A stretch of DNA of 30,636 nt from positions 1 to 30,636 of IMG/VR virus record IMGVR_UViG_3300043409_000713, one strand, 5' to 3'. The stretch comes from a virus. The number at the start of each line of letters is the position of its first letter. Within the stretch, counting starts at the first letter, position 1. This document shows positions 2,555 through 30,635 of this stretch, piece by piece. A program made the translations under genes and the position numbers. The notes below the pieces were generated by a model. The model was not told the origin of the DNA. It saw only the letters and a list, made by a program, of their open reading frames with translations, and did no database searches.

Positions 2555-3886
2555 ATGGAAGCAAAAATAATAAAACCTTTTGCGAAACAATTAGAAGCAC
2601 ATAAAATAGTCCTACAAGAGGAAAAGAAAATTATCCTCTATGGTGGGGCTATATATTTGCCCCTATCTTAACAGGTAGGGGCGCAAGTGATACGTGGTGG
2701 AAAAACATTTTGGCTATTTTTTGAGCTTTTTACACTTTGTGCTAAATACAAAGGTTCTAGGTGGTTGTATATAAGGGAGTCAATGCCAACATTAGAGAAA
2801 ATATCTATGGTCACCTTTAGAAAGGTTCATGATTTGGGGCTTTGGTGTTATGTAAAAAAAATGAAATCGTTTGGTAGCCATTACGAGGTTGAATACGTTA
2901 ATGGTTCAGTTTTAATAATAATGCCAGAGTCGTTTGAAAAAGACCCTAATCACATGAGGTTTCATGGACTAGAAATTAATGGGGCTGGATTAGATGAAAT
3001 GCCAGAGTTACAAGAATCTACTTTCGATAAAATTATTGAAAGGTCAGGCTCACATATAACAGGCGAAAAAATACCAATAAAAATACTAGCAACTGCAAAT
3101 CCTAACGGTACATGGGTAAGAACAAGAATATACGACAAATGGCGTGAAGGAAAACTACCAGATAGCTATGCTTATATTACTGCTAAAATAACAGACAATC
3201 CACATGTACCACAAGATTATATAGACTCATTAAAGGAGAATTTACCTTCAATGTTGTATGATAAGTTTGTCGATGGGGATTGGGACGTAACCGATAATGA
3301 CAAGCCGTGGGCGTATGCTTTTAAGTTACAAAAACATGTATCTGAGGAAGCCGAATATAATCCATCATTGCCTATATACCTATTGTTTGACTTCAACGTA
3401 GAACCAGCAACATGTGGACTAAACCAGTTTACAAGAGATGCAAGATGGCAATTTGATGAAGTACACGTAAACACAGGAAGTATTTATGATGTGATAAGCG
3501 AGATAAAATACAAGTACGGTGAAAATGTAATTTATAAAGTTTCAGGTGATGCAAGCGGATGGGCAAGAGAAAAGGCTACATTTAACCTAACCAACATGTA
3601 CGAAATAATTCAAAAAGAATTAAGGCTTACAGATTATCAAATTGACACACCTAGAGTTAATCCTAGCAACAAATGGGGGCGAACATTGACTAACTTTATA
3701 CTAGAAAAAAAGAACTTCTTAATCCATCCTAGATGCAAATACACTATATTGGATTTGCAGAATTGCAGGGTACTAGATGATGGTAACATAGACAAGAAAA
3801 ACAGCACAATGAGCCATCATTTAGACCATGTTAAGTATTTCTTTACAACTTATTTTGCAGAAGAATTGAATCAGGACTATGTTTAA
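2555..3886 (+). CDS. terL: Terminase large subunit, interrupted in Walker A by a 39-base insert
   Basis: This is the ATPase-nuclease that pumps DNA into the capsid. The frame opens with MEAKIIKPFAKQLEAHKIVL and reaches YGGA at 2650. A 39-base insert with an in-frame TAA follows, and from 2690 the same frame resumes with IRGGKTFWLFF. Without the insert the protein is 430 residues, a normal length, with P-loop YGGAIRGGKT (residues 29-38), Walker B LDE (133-135), ATP-coupling motif ATANPN (166-171) and nuclease aspartates D266, D319 and D411. As written, ordinary translation gives a 38-residue peptide; reinitiation at the GTG at 2687 would give a protein lacking the first half of the P-loop. Everything downstream is intact, so selection for function seems to continue. 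Translational bypass, RNA removal, a population variant or an assembly error are the options. Confidence 0.85.
2651..2689 (+). other. 39-base hairpin-bearing insert inside the terL P-loop codons
   Basis: The insert keeps the reading frame (13 codons) but carries TAA at 2669-2671. GCCCCTATCT (2659-2668) pairs with AGGTAGGGGC (2673-2682), ten pairs including one G-U, around the tetraloop TAAC, so the stop codon lies in the loop. ATA occurs both at its 5' edge (2651-2653) and immediately after it (2690-2692), so the excised segment can be drawn with identical first and landing codons, as in known translational bypassing. The GGGGC of the terL codons at 2645-2649 could also pair with GCCCC (2659-2663). 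It also contains the promoter-like TATATTTG at 2652-2659. Exact removal of 39 bases, and not of the 33 bases between the GGGGC repeats, restores a consensus P-loop. Confidence 0.75.
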
Positions 3887-4279: not shown

Positions 4280-5020
4280 ATGATTGTTTATAATAAACTA
4301 GGAGTAGCTGGTAGGCTTGGAAATATGCTCTTCGAGATAGCCTCAACTTTAGGCATAGCGGATAAATGTGGACAAAAAGCAGTGTTCAATAAATGGGATT
4401 ACGCCCAATACTTCAACTTTGAACAACTACAAACAATCGGATCGGTCAATTACTGGACGTTTAGAGAAGGTGATGAGAATTATTTTAGACCTGAAACATT
4501 TGAACTGAAAGAAAACTGGCAATTAGAAGGGTATTTCCAGAGTGAAAAGTATTTTGAACATATTCGTGAAAAAGTACAAGAAATTTTTGTCTTCGATGCT
4601 AGCAAAGTTGCTCAAAAAATCTTGAAAAAGTACCAATTAGCTTTGCGTTTAGACCCTGTTTCGTTACACGTTCGAGCGGGCGATTTTAAACATAATGGTT
4701 GGTATGTAGGGGATAATTACTTTTTGTCAATGGCTACCAAATTCAAGGAAAGATTAGTAGTCGTCTTTTCTGATGACATACCATATTGCAAGAACATGTT
4801 TCGTGACTTCAAAAACATCATGTATGCAGACGAAAACGAGGTTGATTCGCTTTGTTTAATGTCGATGTGCAAGACTCATGTAATAAGCAATAGCACGTTT
4901 AGTTGGTGGGGAGCGTGGTTAAGTAAGTCAAACGAGGTTTACTATCCTGATTGGCAAAAAGGCAATTACCCAAATAAAGACTTCTATCCTGAACGATGGA
5001 TAAATACCACAATAAAATAA
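4280..5020 (+). CDS. GT11-family fucosyltransferase-like glycosyltransferase
   Basis: The 246-residue protein has the hallmarks of family GT11 (alpha-1,2-fucosyltransferases and relatives): GRLGNMLFEIA (11-21, usually GRLGNQMFQYA), LEGYFQSEKYF (82-92), the donor-binding HVRAGD (130-135, usually HxRRGDY), FSDD (163-166) and ISNSTFSWWGAWL (202-214). The second arginine of HxRRGD is replaced by alanine, which is also seen in divergent members. The enzyme would transfer a deoxy-hexose from a GDP-sugar to a glycan in the cytoplasm. It is the first glycosyltransferase of the cargo block, starting three bases after the preceding stop. The phage carries no recognisable GDP-fucose synthesis gene here, so it would depend on host donor. 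Family call strong, exact linkage unknown. Confidence 0.85.
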   Translation: MIVYNKLGVAGRLGNMLFEIASTLGIADKCGQKAVFNKWDYAQYFNFEQLQTIGSVNYWTFREGDENYFRPETFELKENWQLEGYFQSEKYFEHIREKVQEIFVFDASKVAQKILKKYQLALRLDPVSLHVRAGDFKHNGWYVGDNYFLSMATKFKERLVVVFSDDIPYCKNMFRDFKNIMYADENEVDSLCLMSMCKTHVISNSTFSWWGAWLSKSNEVYYPDWQKGNYPNKDFYPERWINTTIK

Positions 5021-5057
5021 ATATTGCACTAAATGTAATTTGTACACACAATGTACA

Positions 5058-5065
5058 TACATTTG
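5058..5065 (+). promoter_or_regulatory. Possible internal Bacteroidota promoter in the cargo block
   Basis: TACATTTG fits TAnnTTTG and has a TTTG at 5039-5042, fifteen bases upstream. It lies in the only gap of note within the glycan block (5021-5069), four bases before the ATG of the 51-residue gene. Initiation would give an almost leaderless message. Confidence 0.3.
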
Positions 5066-5069
5066 TCCT

Positions 5070-5225
5070 ATGCCAAAGAAGTTAAAAGATTTCAGACTTA
5101 ACAAGCGTTTCAGAAGCGATGACGTTGCTAAATGGCAATTGCAAGCTGACAAAGAAACAGGTAGTAATCTTACGCTTTGGATTGAATTGACATTGAACAA
5201 AACCATAAAGGAAAATGACAACTAG
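5070..5225 (+). CDS. Small basic protein, ribbon-helix-helix-like, 51 aa
   Basis: I take the ATG at 5070 (MPKKLKDFRLNKRFRSDDV); an upstream in-frame ATG at 5040 would add a cysteine-rich extension overlapping the promoter-like box and is less likely. The N-terminal beta-like basic strand (KLKDFRLNKRF), a helix (SDDVAKWQLQADKETG) and a final S-N-x-T-L-W-I-E-L-T-L segment resemble the short ribbon-helix-helix or mobilisation-type proteins of Bacteroidota elements, which bind DNA as dimers. Its end overlaps the next start by 11 bases. A regulator of the cargo block is plausible, but the fold call rests on pattern only. Confidence 0.5.
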   Translation: MPKKLKDFRLNKRFRSDDVAKWQLQADKETGSNLTLWIELTLNKTIKENDN

Positions 5226-5790
5226 AGAGCGAATAGAACTACTTGCAGAACGCACCGAGAACTGGTGGAGACCGCTTTATTACCATGTAGTGCCAAAGAT
5301 TATAAACGACAACGGTTATAAGACTGGAATCGAGATTGGTGTTGCTTTTGGTGGTCATGCGGAAGCTATATTTCAGAATACGAGTATAGAAATACTTGTT
5401 TGTGTTGATCCGTGGGAATTTACTGGTGCAGAATTTGAGGGACTAAAAAATAAATATGATTATGATGAATGGGCATTTTACGTTCGCCAAAGGTTATTAG
5501 ATTTGAGCATTAATTGTCTTGTCGAAAGAACTACTAGTGATGAATTTGCAAAATACGCACATAATAATTTTTTTGACTTTGTTTTCATTGATGGAGACCA
5601 CTCATACGAACAAGTAAAGAAAGACATTCAAAACTACCTGCCTAAAATAAAATCAGGAGGCATGTTGATAGGTCACGATTACGGACACGCTGATTACATG
5701 GGAGTAAAACAGGCGGTTGACGAATTTATTCAGGGATCAGGAAAAGAATTAGTATTGCACGATGGTTATGTTTGGAGCGTAAGAGTATGA
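5215..5790 (+). CDS. Class I SAM-dependent methyltransferase (Methyltransf_24-like)
   Basis: The 191-residue protein has a Rossmann SAM-binding loop GIEIGVAFGGHAE (38-50), an acidic VDPW strand end (64-67), and FDFVFIDGDHSYEQVKKDI (120-138) followed by SGGMLIGHDYGHADYMGV (147-164). The F-I-D-G-D-H-S-Y-E and GGxxxxHDY motifs are characteristic of the Methyltransf_24 group, often found in sugar- or polysaccharide-modifying clusters. The likely role is O-methylation of a glycan or sugar nucleotide made by the adjacent glycosyltransferases. It overlaps the gene before it by 11 bases, and its stop overlaps the next ATG (ATGA). The substrate is inferred from context only. Confidence 0.82.
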   Translation: MTTRERIELLAERTENWWRPLYYHVVPKIINDNGYKTGIEIGVAFGGHAEAIFQNTSIEILVCVDPWEFTGAEFEGLKNKYDYDEWAFYVRQRLLDLSINCLVERTTSDEFAKYAHNNFFDFVFIDGDHSYEQVKKDIQNYLPKIKSGGMLIGHDYGHADYMGVKQAVDEFIQGSGKELVLHDGYVWSVRV

Positions 5791-6572
5791 TACAAGAAAT
5801 TCCTAAACAATTCCAACCACAACAAAAGTCATCATATCCAAGCTATTGTACGGATATGATGATAGAGCAATACATTAACACCAATTACAAAGGCGAACAC
5901 GAGCGTATTTACTTGCCAATCTATTGGACTAATTACTACGTGAACAACAATTACGGAAACGGAGACATAAAGCCTTTGTATTACTTTTTGGATAGCCTAG
6001 ACAAAACAAAAAAATACTGGACGGTTGTTCAATATGATGATGGTATTTTAGAAAAGCCTTTAGACTTAGATTTGCTGATATTCAGTTCAGGTAGTTCTCA
6101 AGGAATACCAATTCCGTTATTACCTAGTCATTATTTACCATATGATGAAACAGAAGGAAAACTATACGATGTTTCGTTTATTGGCAATAAAACAACGCAT
6201 CCAATACGTCAAAAAATGGTAGATGTTTTAAGACCCTGGGTGTTTGATAACTTTGTTTCTCAACATTATTACCAGCGTTTATGCGAATCTTGGTTTAGCC
6301 TTTGTCCTCGTGGTTACGGTATAACATCTTTCAGGCTTTACGAGGCTTTGTCGTGTCGTTCAGTCCCAATCTACATTTCAGATGAACACATTTTGCCATT
6401 TATAGAGTTAATTGATTGGGGAAAAATTGCAATTATTATCCATTCAGACGATATTTCGATACTAAGACAAATAATGGCTGAATTTGAGACTGATTGGGAG
6501 TATTTCGATTCAATTAAGCATATGTTTACGATGGAAGGAACTTTAAAATACATTGAGTCATGTTTAGTTTAG
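5787..6572 (+). CDS. Exostosin/GT47-like glycosyltransferase
   Basis: The ATG at 5787 overlaps the previous stop; an upstream in-frame TTG is ignored. In the 261-residue protein the C-terminal half is diagnostic: YDVSFIGNKTTHPIRQKM (127-144), FSLCPRGYGITSFRLYEAL (170-188), then VPIYISDEHILPFIELIDW (193-211). CPRGxGxxSFRLYEAL...PVYIxD is the nucleotide-sugar-binding signature of the exostosin family. The N-terminal half (YWTNYYVNNNYGNGD) carries the acceptor domain. Cytoplasmic, no membrane span. The end overlaps the next gene by 13 bases, showing tight coupling with the GT2 enzyme. Exact sugar unknown. Confidence 0.82.
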   Translation: MIQEIPKQFQPQQKSSYPSYCTDMMIEQYINTNYKGEHERIYLPIYWTNYYVNNNYGNGDIKPLYYFLDSLDKTKKYWTVVQYDDGILEKPLDLDLLIFSSGSSQGIPIPLLPSHYLPYDETEGKLYDVSFIGNKTTHPIRQKMVDVLRPWVFDNFVSQHYYQRLCESWFSLCPRGYGITSFRLYEALSCRSVPIYISDEHILPFIELIDWGKIAIIIHSDDISILRQIMAEFETDWEYFDSIKHMFTMEGTLKYIESCLV

Positions 6573-7225
6573 CGATTACAACTTATGAGCGAGTGGTTGA
6601 GGTGGTTCGACTAATTACTTCTGTTTACCATTGTCCTGAAATAAAGGAAATAATAGTAGTAGACGATTATTCGCCTGATTACGAACGGTTAAAGGCTTAC
6701 ACTCATTTTAAAAAGATTAAGCTTTACAGAAATGAAACCAATTTAGGATGTTTTAAAAACAAACTTGAAGCTATTTCAAAATGTACGCAAGATTACGTTT
6801 TATTGATTGACTCCGACAACGTGATTGATGCAAATTATGTCAAAAAGTGCATTGAAAACGTGGATGGTAAAAGTATAATCGCACCTTCAAAAGCTTTGCC
6901 ACATTTTGACTATACTTCTATGATTGGCACACTTGATAAATCTGTTTTACCAACTATAAAAGACAATTCAATACTTGATTGTGCGCTAAATACTTGCAAT
7001 TATTGTTTGCCTAGAATTGAGTTTATAGAGTTTGCCAAAACACTTGATAAGTCGTATGATTGGAAGGGAGTTGATAGCTTATACATGGCAGTAGAATGGC
7101 TTAAATCAGGTCGTGAAATTAAAATAATTGAAGGTATGGAATATGTACATGAAATTCGCCCTCACGATTCAGTTTATTTAAAAACAAGTAACCCAGAAGA
7201 AATCAAAAATAAAATACTAAGTTAA
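6560..7225 (+). CDS. GT2-family glycosyltransferase (GT-A fold)
   Basis: 221 residues. The N-terminus (SLAITTYERVVEVVRLITSV, 3-22), IIVVDDYSPD (31-40), the NETNLGCFKNKLEAI segment (58-72) and LLIDSDNVID (81-90, a D-x-D metal site) give a standard GT-A, family 2 enzyme using a nucleotide-diphosphosugar. The domain is short and lacks membrane helices, so it is soluble. It may extend the same glycan as the GT11 and exostosin-like enzymes before it. ATG chosen because it overlaps the preceding stop as elsewhere in this operon. Confidence 0.85.
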   Translation: MFSLAITTYERVVEVVRLITSVYHCPEIKEIIVVDDYSPDYERLKAYTHFKKIKLYRNETNLGCFKNKLEAISKCTQDYVLLIDSDNVIDANYVKKCIENVDGKSIIAPSKALPHFDYTSMIGTLDKSVLPTIKDNSILDCALNTCNYCLPRIEFIEFAKTLDKSYDWKGVDSLYMAVEWLKSGREIKIIEGMEYVHEIRPHDSVYLKTSNPEEIKNKILS

Positions 7226-7227
7226 AT

Positions 7228-7365
7228 ATGAGTGAGGAGGAAATAGAAGAACTTGAAATGCTTAACGAAAAGTATATTGCAGGTTCAAATGACTTACAAC
7301 AAGTTAAAATTGCAATAAGAATTAAACAATTAATGGACAAAAACGAAAACAGTAAAAAGTTATGA
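7228..7365 (+). CDS. Very small acidic/helical protein, 45 aa
   Basis: This short frame (MSEEEIEELEMLNEKYI, then DLQQVKIAIRIKQLMDKNEN) fills the gap between the GT2 and FkbM genes, begins three bases after the preceding stop and ends in an ATGA overlap with the next start, just like the annotated genes. It is predicted to be two amphipathic helices with no cysteine or membrane segment. Position and overlap argue that it is translated. Small helical proteins of this kind occur beside phage glycan genes, but I cannot name a function. Confidence 0.6.
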   Translation: MSEEEIEELEMLNEKYIAGSNDLQQVKIAIRIKQLMDKNENSKKL

Positions 7366-8102
7366 TGATGGATTTTAAAGAGCTTATTCAAAAACATAAG
7401 CTAAAGATTAATGGAGTGATCCAAGTTGGTTGCCACTACTTTGAGGAGTGGTCTTTGTGGCGTGAACTTAAAATAGGGCATAAAGTATTCTTCGAAGCTG
7501 ATGAAAAGAACTTTCAAGAAGGGTTAAGACGGAATGGAGTACCCGACAATGTATGGATTGAAAACCTAGCATGTGGCAATGAAAACAAAATGATTGAAAT
7601 GAATTACGAAGAACGTAACGAGGGTCAATCGAATACTTTACTAGAACCAGCACTTTGTTTAGAGCAATATCCTGATATTGTTTACAAGGGTAAAAAGTTG
7701 GTTAAAATGATCCGTTTAGATGATTACCATAATGACATTACACCAATGAACTTCTTAGCAATGGACGTTGAGGGGTATGAGTTAGAAGTATTGAAAGGTG
7801 CAACTAAGCATTTACAACACATTGATTATATTCTTACAGAGGTATCATGTGAGGAGCGTTATAAAGGTCAGCCAATGGTTGAAGATTTAGATAACTTTCT
7901 TTCACCGTTTGGCTTTGAACGTGTCGAAACTAATTGGGGTGGGATTAATTGGGGCGATGCTTTGTATATTAAGACAAAGCCAGTTGAATTGCCTGAAATG
8001 TTTAGAACTAAAATGTCTGATTTTAAAAAAGACTTCTTTGATGCACAAAAAGCAAAAGAAGAGCCAAAAAAGAAAGGAAGACCATTTAAAAAAAAAGTCT
8101 AA
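7362..8102 (+). CDS. FkbM-family methyltransferase
   Basis: 246 residues. GVIQVGCHYFEEW (18-30) is the SAM-binding loop, VFFEAD (42-47) the acidic strand, LACGNENKMIEMN (69-81) and EGQSNTLLEP (87-96) are FkbM hallmarks, followed by RLDDY (118-122) and NFLAMDVEGYELEVLKGA (130-147). FkbM enzymes O-methylate sugars or small molecules. After the domain comes a basic tail (EEPKKKGRPFKKKV) ending in a run of nine A (8088-8096). At that run the -1 frame leads straight into a glycosyltransferase domain that lacks its own start codon, so a frameshifted fusion product is possible. Tandem ATG codons mark the start; the first overlaps the stop of the 45-residue gene. Confidence 0.85.
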   Translation: MMMDFKELIQKHKLKINGVIQVGCHYFEEWSLWRELKIGHKVFFEADEKNFQEGLRRNGVPDNVWIENLACGNENKMIEMNYEERNEGQSNTLLEPALCLEQYPDIVYKGKKLVKMIRLDDYHNDITPMNFLAMDVEGYELEVLKGATKHLQHIDYILTEVSCEERYKGQPMVEDLDNFLSPFGFERVETNWGGINWGDALYIKTKPVELPEMFRTKMSDFKKDFFDAQKAKEEPKKKGRPFKKKV

Positions 8103-8668
8103 AGATTTACTACATTAATCGAGATGAACGTACCGATAGGAGAGTTGATATTGAAAGCCAATTTGGAGAAACAGCAGAAAGATTCAAAGCGTATGAGCCA
8201 ACAGATAGTATTGGAGAAATTGAAGACAGGTCAAACCTTGACGAACGTGCAAAAGCATGTTACAGAAGTCACTTTGAATTGTTAAAACTGATTTCCAAAA
8301 GAAAAGACCAGATTGTTTTAGTCCTTGAAGATGATGCTAAAGTAATAAACGGATTTAGTGATAAATTAGACAACGTACTTTCAGAATTGCCGATTAACTT
8401 TGATTTGTGTTATCTTGGTGCAAGTCACGATAACCAACAATGGAAGGTAAAAGTAAAAAATTGTGATTATATTAGCCACGCAGACCATCAGTGGTGCTTA
8501 CATGGTTATATCGTTAATAAAGATTGCGTTCAAAAGATAATTGATAGAGTCAAAATAATGGACAACTCAATAGATGGTATATTTGTGCAGTTGCAGGAGG
8601 CGTTAAACACTTACGCAAGTAATGAGTATATAATAAATCAAAGTGGTTCAAAAAGCGATTTAAGATGA
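8090..8668 (+). CDS. GT25-like glycosyltransferase domain without its own start codon
   Basis: The frame opens after a TAA at 8087 and reads KKSLKIYYINRDERTDRR, typical of the very N-terminus of family 25 (LPS) glycosyltransferases, which normally starts M-K-x-Y-x-I-N-x-x-x-x-x-x-R. Further on come ACYRSHFELL, the acidic LVLEDDAKV (77-85), DLCYLGAS (105-112) and ADHQWCLHGYIVNKDCVQKI (131-150), so the domain is complete. There is no ATG, GTG or TTG before the TTG at 8279, which would delete the first third. The frame is -1 relative to FkbM and meets it at the A9 run, so expression by -1 slippage as an FkbM-GT25 fusion is the simplest reading. A missing A in the assembly would give the same picture. 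The stop overlaps the next ATG (ATGA). Confidence 0.7.
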   Translation, partial: KKSLKIYYINRDERTDRRVDIESQFGETAERFKAYEPTDSIGEIEDRSNLDERAKACYRSHFELLKLISKRKDQIVLVLEDDAKVINGFSDKLDNVLSELPINFDLCYLGASHDNQQWKVKVKNCDYISHADHQWCLHGYIVNKDCVQKIIDRVKIMDNSIDGIFVQLQEALNTYASNEYIINQSGSKSDLR

Positions 8669-30618: not shown

Positions 30619-30635
30619 GAATCACGTTGTACTAT
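30619..30635 (-). repeat. Terminal inverted repeat, right copy (17 bases)
   Basis: GAATCACGTTGTACTAT is the exact reverse complement of bases 2-18. Having the two copies one base from each end of the window by chance is very unlikely. The pair could mark true ends, an inversion site, or a point where an assembly was cut at an inverted repeat. Confidence 0.85.

Follow-up and report, generated by a model that had tools for sequence, protein, structure and literature searches.

The window analysed here is the whole of a 30,636-base IMG/VR virus record, a metagenome contig. Its large terminase gene, terL, lies at 2555–3886 on the + strand, directly after the small terminase gene terS, and a 39-nt insert splits its Walker A motif (P-loop), YGGAI|RGGKT. 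The frame is open on both sides with a single break, a TAA at 2669–2671, and the translation runs ...ILYGGAI, then the 13 insert codons YLPLS*QVGAQVI, then RGGKTFW.... Because ATA is present on either side of the insert, placements from 2651–2689 to 2654–2692 are equivalent. The features of the locus are, in order:

2054–2554, + strand: terS, small terminase subunit (GP3_package, Pfam PF16677, E 2.6e-22; PHROG phrog_606, E 1.8e-39), adjoining the 5′ end of terL
2555–2653, + strand: 5′ part of terL, 33 codons of open frame to ...ILYGGAI (first half of Walker A), containing a G-run at 2645–2648
2651–2653, + strand: ATA, probable take-off codon (5′ Ile copy); ATH stands on either side of the 39-nt insert in 30/30 contigs
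2654–2692, + strand: the 39-nt insert, its length and site identical in 29 other contigs
2659–2668, + strand: 5′ arm of the hairpin, GCCCCTATCT, from pairing and folding
2669–2671, + strand: TAA stop inside the tetraloop TAAC (2669–2672), in the reading frame; an in-frame stop occurs in 30/30 inserts
2673–2682, + strand: 3′ arm of the hairpin, AGGTAGGGGC, whose GGGG ends 8 nt before the landing codon and may act in a Shine-Dalgarno-like way
2690–2692, + strand: ATA, probable landing codon (3′ Ile copy)
2693–3886, + strand: 3′ part of terL, RGGKT..., 397 codons and stop (PHROG 979, 10250), with the ATPase and nuclease regions intact

Removal of the insert leaves YGGAI|RGGKT in an open frame, and the original prediction of a 39-base insertion in the terL P-loop is borne out, as are its in-frame TAA in a tetraloop, its ten-pair hairpin and its ATA at both junctions. 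It had also placed the insert in the most conserved codons with no further decay downstream, and the frame from 2693 to 3886 is indeed open with complete motifs. The window TerL is ~40% identical to the intact TerL of two relatives (L002 and L003) and retains the conserved motifs. In relatives the protein is uninterrupted through GGA(I/A)(R/G)GGKT, and one (L081) reads exactly YGGAIRGGKTF. The longest callable ORF of the window terL begins at 2687, within the insert.

The window stem is composed of 10 bp, 2659–2668 with 2673–2682, closed by the loop TAAC at 2669–2672. Folding gave a z-score of −2.6 for the 81-nt region of the window and −3.8 for the 42-nt element alone, with 0 of 300 shuffles equally stable. 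Within the AT-rich 30-kb window this hairpin alone is unexceptional: other hairpins outscore it and shuffles match its score. The feature that stands above chance is its recurrence, with 29 other contigs carrying a 39-nt stop-bearing hairpin at the same site.

Three other features of the window were observed. A 17-bp inverted repeat, ATAGTACAACGTGATTC, occupies its ends (2–18 and 30619–30635), either as a real terminal repeat or as an assembly-graph end. The contig start (2–247, + strand) holds a truncated HNH-type nuclease frame (PPYCEWC...CKQCHIKEH) of a type other than NUMOD4, and frames resembling sugar- and methyltransferases lie at 4280–8668, between terL and the tail genes, an unusual position for such a cassette. 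A search for relatives of its presumed capsid protein returned none, so that no near relative of the window phage could be read.

Recurrence of the insert in other terL genes

A split-P-loop pattern allowing inserts of ~20–50 nt found two further terL genes, L091 and L092, and one unrelated ATPase. Both terL genes carry exactly 39 nt at the same codon, with a TAG stop and a CCCC..GGGG hairpin differing from that of the window. When the length was fixed and the codons relaxed, the pattern matched 79 contigs. In 29 of them the match is a terL gene in which 39 nt with an in-frame stop separate GGAI from RGGK; the other matches were rejected as chance, mostly glycine-rich or repetitive frames. With the window, the total is 30 contigs and 13 distinct elements across diverged terL genes, although many bearers are close relatives and the counts are not independent. 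The elements fall into five sequence families:

Window
L091
L092
Group A: L093, L101, L106, L119, L121, L131, L133, L137, L160
Group B: L096, L099, L110, L113, L117, L128–L130, L138, L141, L144, L146, L149, L152, L157, L161, L163, L169

TerL identity to L092 is ~60% for L091 and group A, falling to 38% for group B and 35% for the window. Insert length is constant: the open scan (~20–50 nt) gave 39 only, and every hairpin insert among 80 terL relatives collected without regard to length was 39 nt. The comparison by which the original prediction proposed to check the insert, terL with and without the 39 bases, is available, with 29 other bearers and insert-free relatives both found.

Other searches defined where the element is absent. 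The exact hairpin core of the window was missing from viral_contigs and genome_contigs, the strict 39-nt pattern had no match in genome_contigs, and 0 of the first 80 terL relatives examined was interrupted. Degenerate hairpin arms (TTGCCCCT..AGGGGCGCAA) retrieved five chance matches in unrelated contexts, which were rejected. Blastn of the insert against phages and plasmids returned nothing meaningful, and a PDB sequence search with an intact TerL relative gave no match.

All bearers are metagenome contigs, and the terL genes of L119, L131 and L137 show assembly-type deletions further downstream, as an assembly or sequencing artefact might produce. The same architecture nevertheless appears in ~30 contigs, many metagenomes and several sequence families, which leaves artefact a negligible probability; the variety of source metagenomes rules out misassembly as the origin of the family as a whole. 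The downstream deletions, each different and unique, are likely assembly errors, and their interpretation as second inserts was rejected.

Architecture of the element and selection across it

The element has a consistent order: ATH, a short stop-bearing leader, a GC-rich hairpin, GGGG, a few A-rich bases and ATH. The window departs from the common layout in having its stop in the loop. Its junction Ile codons are identical (ATA/ATA), while those of most bearers are synonymous but not identical; in groups A and B and in L092 the Ile codon changes from ATA to ATT or from ATT to ATA, which involves different tRNAs. Groups A and B also have CGN (Arg) at both junctions, and this better-matched pair is confined to them. 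The Arg-to-Arg pair is decodable by one tRNA through wobble, whereas the Ile-to-Ile pair, present in all bearers, often is not.

The in-frame stop is insert codon 2 or 3 in all bearers except the window. Only group A and some members of group B have it immediately after CGN; in the other group B members it lies one codon later. In the window, five sense codons stand between ATA and the tetraloop stop, so the stop is not directly 3′ of the take-off codon. Because its position differs (after Arg, one codon later or in the tetraloop), the sequences argue that a uniform A-site stall at the stop is not a property of the family. The original prediction had pointed to this misfit with T4, in which the stop immediately follows the take-off codon; the misfit holds for the window but is eased in most relatives, where the stop is near a possible take-off site. 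In-frame readthrough or stop reassignment was considered and rejected: TAA and TAG are both used, L106 and L121 have two stops, insert residues show no conservation from one family to another, and readthrough would place 13 residues within Walker A.

All 13 distinct elements fold as hairpins with a tetraloop and are more stable than the shuffled average (z −2.1 to −4.8). The loops are GAAA or GUAA in groups A and B and UAAC in the window; those of L091 and L092 can be drawn as GCAA/GUAA or, one register over, CAAC/UAAC. A UAAC tetraloop can mimic GNRA. In group B, stem pairing is kept in 98.6% of cells with one compensatory pair and beats slid controls, while covariation is modest, only slightly above shuffles (25/500). 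GGGG is present in the Gly-Gly-Ala codons upstream of the site in 30/30 bearers versus 26/146 insert-free terL genes, and pairing of this G-run with the CCCC arm could give an alternative fold.

Selection was measured on both sides of the stop. Downstream of it, the group B genes (15 sequences) have a mean dN of 0.024 and dS of 0.66, a ratio of 0.036, and upstream a dN of 0.018 and dS of 0.17; the downstream ratio in group A is 0.075. Variation within the group B insert is 0.106, compared to 0.265 at third codon positions. Strong purifying selection thus acts beyond the stop, which points to expression of these codons.

These values bear on the idea that a homing or protective event left the insert behind as a scar in a dead gene, with the phages relying on helpers or another terminase. 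Every member does have an in-frame stop in its ATPase motif, and L201, L195, L236 and L251 show other disruptive inserts arising at the same spot. A dN/dS of 0.036 across the full downstream frame at dS 0.66 is difficult to reconcile with decay, and further counterevidence comes from records with one TerL only on contigs of 36–38 kb and from cultured Streptomyces phages with an interrupted terL P-loop. We consider a disrupted terL very doubtful overall, and a dead gene appears very unlikely in group B; the open, motif-complete frame of the window suggests that its terL is also live. A second terL elsewhere in the genome, raised by the original prediction as a point against rescue, has no counterpart in 13 of the 15 bearer records searched, which gave a single TerL match. 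Of the other two, the L119 record has its TerL broken into two fragments by an assembly-type deletion, and a record of 52 kb has two copies.

In the proposed bypass, the ribosome would read ...YGGA-Ile (or Ile-Arg) and pause before the GC-rich hairpin and stop, whereupon the peptidyl-tRNA would release its codon and re-pair, 39 nt downstream, with the matching second copy of the Ile (or Ile-Arg) codon. Translation would then resume in frame at RGGKT..., yielding normal TerL.

The main rival to bypass is termination and reinitiation, giving a split TerL. Termination at the stop would open the hairpin, and the GGGG released from its 3′ arm would serve as a Shine-Dalgarno sequence; the restarted product (fMet-RGGKT..., from ATH) would associate with the short N-terminal peptide, as in split gp39/gp60 or split NrdA. 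In every family GGGG ends 5–8 nt before ATH with a stop shortly upstream, and split essential phage proteins beside homing endonucleases exist (PMC2988022). The proposed start codon, however, is ATA, ATT or ATC in 30/30 and never ATG, though an ATG start would be cost-free, and no ATG or GTG start within the insert is common to the families. The break would also fall inside Walker A, after a peptide of ~33 residues. Together these points make a split TerL unlikely.

Spread of the insert, linked endonuclease genes and shorter inserts

The element appears to be mobile as well as recurrent, and both points go beyond the original prediction. The 39-nt state is scattered across a tree of 111 TerL proteins: well-supported branches force at least 6 changes, and at least 10 when all interrupted genes are set against uninterrupted ones; long branches leave the window's own position on this tree unsure. 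The occupied L160 and the empty L194 are 97.4% identical over 3,963 nt. Their identity is 98–100% from −480 to −180 and ~80% from there to the insert; the first two 60-base bins past the insert give 91% and 86%, and beyond them it is ~100%. The upstream side of this tract in L160 is 93–100% identical to other bearers. L160 thus appears to carry a recently transferred tract of ~300 bp (about −180 to +120) enclosing the insert, as homing or plain recombination would leave. A 52-kb contig, IMGVR_UViG_3300044695_002763 (L252 and L253; the L157 contig), holds two terL genes, one occupied and one empty, that lie ~35.7 kb apart and share 90.6% identity; it is probably two strains joined in assembly. 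The tract, the two-terL contig and the scattered tree all display spread into empty sites with co-conversion of the flanks. A transposon target-site duplication was rejected; no transposase was seen, and the 3-nt repeat is too short to tell.

Removal of the element from DNA during infection, so that packaged or expressed genomes would lack it, could make use of the direct ATA repeats flanking the window insert, and the hairpin could favour precise deletion. Flanking repeats are non-identical in most families, though, and no excised form with the same flanks was found, the closest insert-free copies having diverged flanks. No insert-linked recombinase was seen, only an HNH homing-type nuclease. 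Excision from the genome is therefore highly improbable.

The nuclease is encoded beside the insert. An ORF of ~170–200 aa lies between terS and terL in L133, L096, L099, L113, L117, L128, L144, L146 and L161; the ORF types scanned match NUMOD4 and HNH_3, and L106 and L121 retain only a C-terminal endonuclease remnant. A NUMOD4/HNH gene or remnant is present upstream of terL in 12/31 interrupted loci, including one with a 5-nt insert (L236), versus 0/137 uninterrupted loci with at least 700 nt upstream (Fisher p 2e-10; the loci are non-independent, stemming from about three lineages). Neither the window nor 18 further interrupted loci have such a gene beside terL; inserts left without their nuclease would be expected in such systems. 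The insert may split the DNA target of this HNH homing endonuclease, often encoded between terS and terL. Bearers would then resist cutting, and recombination would carry the insert, alone or together with the endonuclease gene, into insert-free terL genes.

Among the 80 relatives collected without regard to length, four terL genes have other stop-bearing inserts at the same spot:

L201: 6 nt, ATT CGC TGA CGT
L195/L196: 11 nt, out of frame, ATT CGC TGACAAAC CGT
L236, L251: 5 nt, out of frame, GCC TGACT ATA, an identical insert in two diverged terL genes

L201 has insert-free relatives at 92–93% identity, and in L236 the NUMOD4/HNH gene is directly upstream. The matched CGC/CGT pair is kept in L201 and L195, and L236 and L251 have no obvious matched pair. 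At 5, 6 and 11 nt, these inserts are too short to be introns.

The short inserts weigh against RNA removal, in which the 39 nt would be an extremely short intron, possibly what is left of a degenerate group I intron, cut out in trans with the flanking ends joined. This idea draws on phage ICP1, where a spliced terL intron has a neighbouring free-standing endonuclease gene (PMC10448857), and on the GNRA-type loop of the hairpin. Rfam gave no match at gathering thresholds and chance-level matches only in a permissive search, and 39 nt cannot hold a ribozyme core. The group I U/G boundary rule suits some families only, no conserved exon–exon pairing was seen, and the short stop-bearing inserts share the site. 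On balance RNA removal is quite improbable. Two defined classes were rejected separately: a group I intron, for want of a conserved catalytic core (Rfam) and sufficient length, and bulge-helix-bulge splicing, with no consistent flank pairing. RNA or DNA removal, offered by the original prediction as alternatives to bypass, thus gained no supporting evidence, and the stop-bearing versions of 5, 6 and 11 nt make splicing less likely.

Interrupted terL genes also occur in Streptomyces phages. Bypass has been suggested for the terL of phiHau3 (Hau3) (PMC5009743). Its gap sits in Walker A, TGG GGC [TTACTCC] GGT AAG (KGWG|GKD; L254, record positions 2602–2640), and is common to GreenWeasel and BroPlease. 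The terL P-loop therefore appears to be a recurrent place for tolerated interruptions. In the comparison of L254–L256, phiHau3 and GreenWeasel have a second 10-nt insert, CGGTC TTTAA CGGTC, further down terL (phiHau3 ~2930), which BroPlease lacks.

Proposed bypass and its relation to known systems

We place a probability of roughly 0.6 on the reading that the 39 nt within the Walker A codons of terL are a mobile RNA hairpin element, carrying a stop, which ribosomes skip during translation. Translation across the gap is favoured because it covers the most observations: the duplicated codons, the hairpin, the tolerated stop, the short forms, the endonuclease linkage and the T4 precedent. The codon pair used may be Ile or Arg, and the window copy presumably works as those of its relatives do. 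The element appears best read as a homing-endonuclease-linked bypass element, analogous to T4 mobA/gene 60 but in a new gene.

In T4, the bypassed insert of gene 60 is neighboured by the HNH gene mobA (PMC3014915, PMC5009743, PMC2988022). Both systems have a stop-bearing gap, a hairpin with a stable tetraloop, junction codons that match (in terL often only synonymously), an essential phage gene, a nearby HNH gene and absence from relatives (PMC3014915, PMC5009743). Gene 60 differs in encoding a topoisomerase subunit and in having a 50-nt out-of-frame gap between GGA/GGA codons; its stop comes directly after take-off, and a nascent-peptide signal is known for it. It is also a single case, whereas the terL element is widespread, 39 nt, in frame and in Walker A codons. 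The terL element would work like T4 gene 60/mobA and may belong with it; because a stop directly after take-off is absent from the window and non-uniform in the family, we class it as a variant of that kind. The gene 60-like rescue put forward by the original prediction has gained selection on both sides of the stop, a conserved RNA hairpin and an HNH gene linked in relatives as mobA is to gene 60, and bypass itself is what we infer from these.

The phiHau3 (Hautrevirus) gap resembles the terL element in its Walker A position (KGWG|GKD), where a 10-nt insert leaves a GGC/GGT matching pair. It differs in being from an actinobacterial phage with a different terminase, in having no such hairpin, and in its rare TTA codon in the gap and second 10-nt insert. 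The short forms L201 (6 nt) and L195 (11 nt) resemble phiHau3 more than the 39-nt form does. Bypass also makes short inserts tolerable in the mitochondria of Magnusiomyces capitatus, whose byp elements include some with imperfect codon matches (PMC5009743). They are read by mitochondrial ribosomes at 81 sites in many genes, reportedly independent of mRNA context, unlike the one fixed site of the terL element. Collaborative homing in ICP1 is similar in that terL is interrupted and the endonuclease gene lies beside, not inside, the insert (PMC10448857). There, however, the interruption is a splicing intron with a T5orf172 homing endonuclease gene, whereas the terL element is 39 nt, has no ribozyme core and is linked to NUMOD4/HNH. 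TerL relatives in Flavobacterium and Bacteroides phages suggest that the bearers infect Bacteroidota, the phylum to which Prevotella loescheii belongs. A 29-nt hop has been reported in a P. loescheii adhesin (PMC5009743), a host gene with a different gap and one that was hard to make work in E. coli.

The wider proposition is a widespread homing-endonuclease-linked bypass family at a fixed terL site with hairpin (39-nt) and minimal (5-, 6-, 11-nt) forms, the Walker A codons being a recurrent hop site in Streptomyces phages too; we hold this to be evenly balanced. If bypass is true, this would be, to our knowledge, the first many-membered family of bypass elements in bacteria. No description of the 39-nt element was found in the open-access papers searched. 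Efficient bacterial ribosome bypass rests almost wholly on T4 gene 60; a review lists few further candidates and states that natural hops over an in-frame stop are not known (PMC5009743). A family offering five or more hairpin sequences, natural variants of the stem, terL genes with and without the insert at 90–98% identity, and minimal forms would allow the requirements of bypass to be read from evolution and compared side by side. Inserts that spoil a homing-endonuclease target inside a motif too conserved to mutate would also be a general origin of such gaps. Gene callers would shorten or miss terL in bearers, which affects phage detection and taxonomy.
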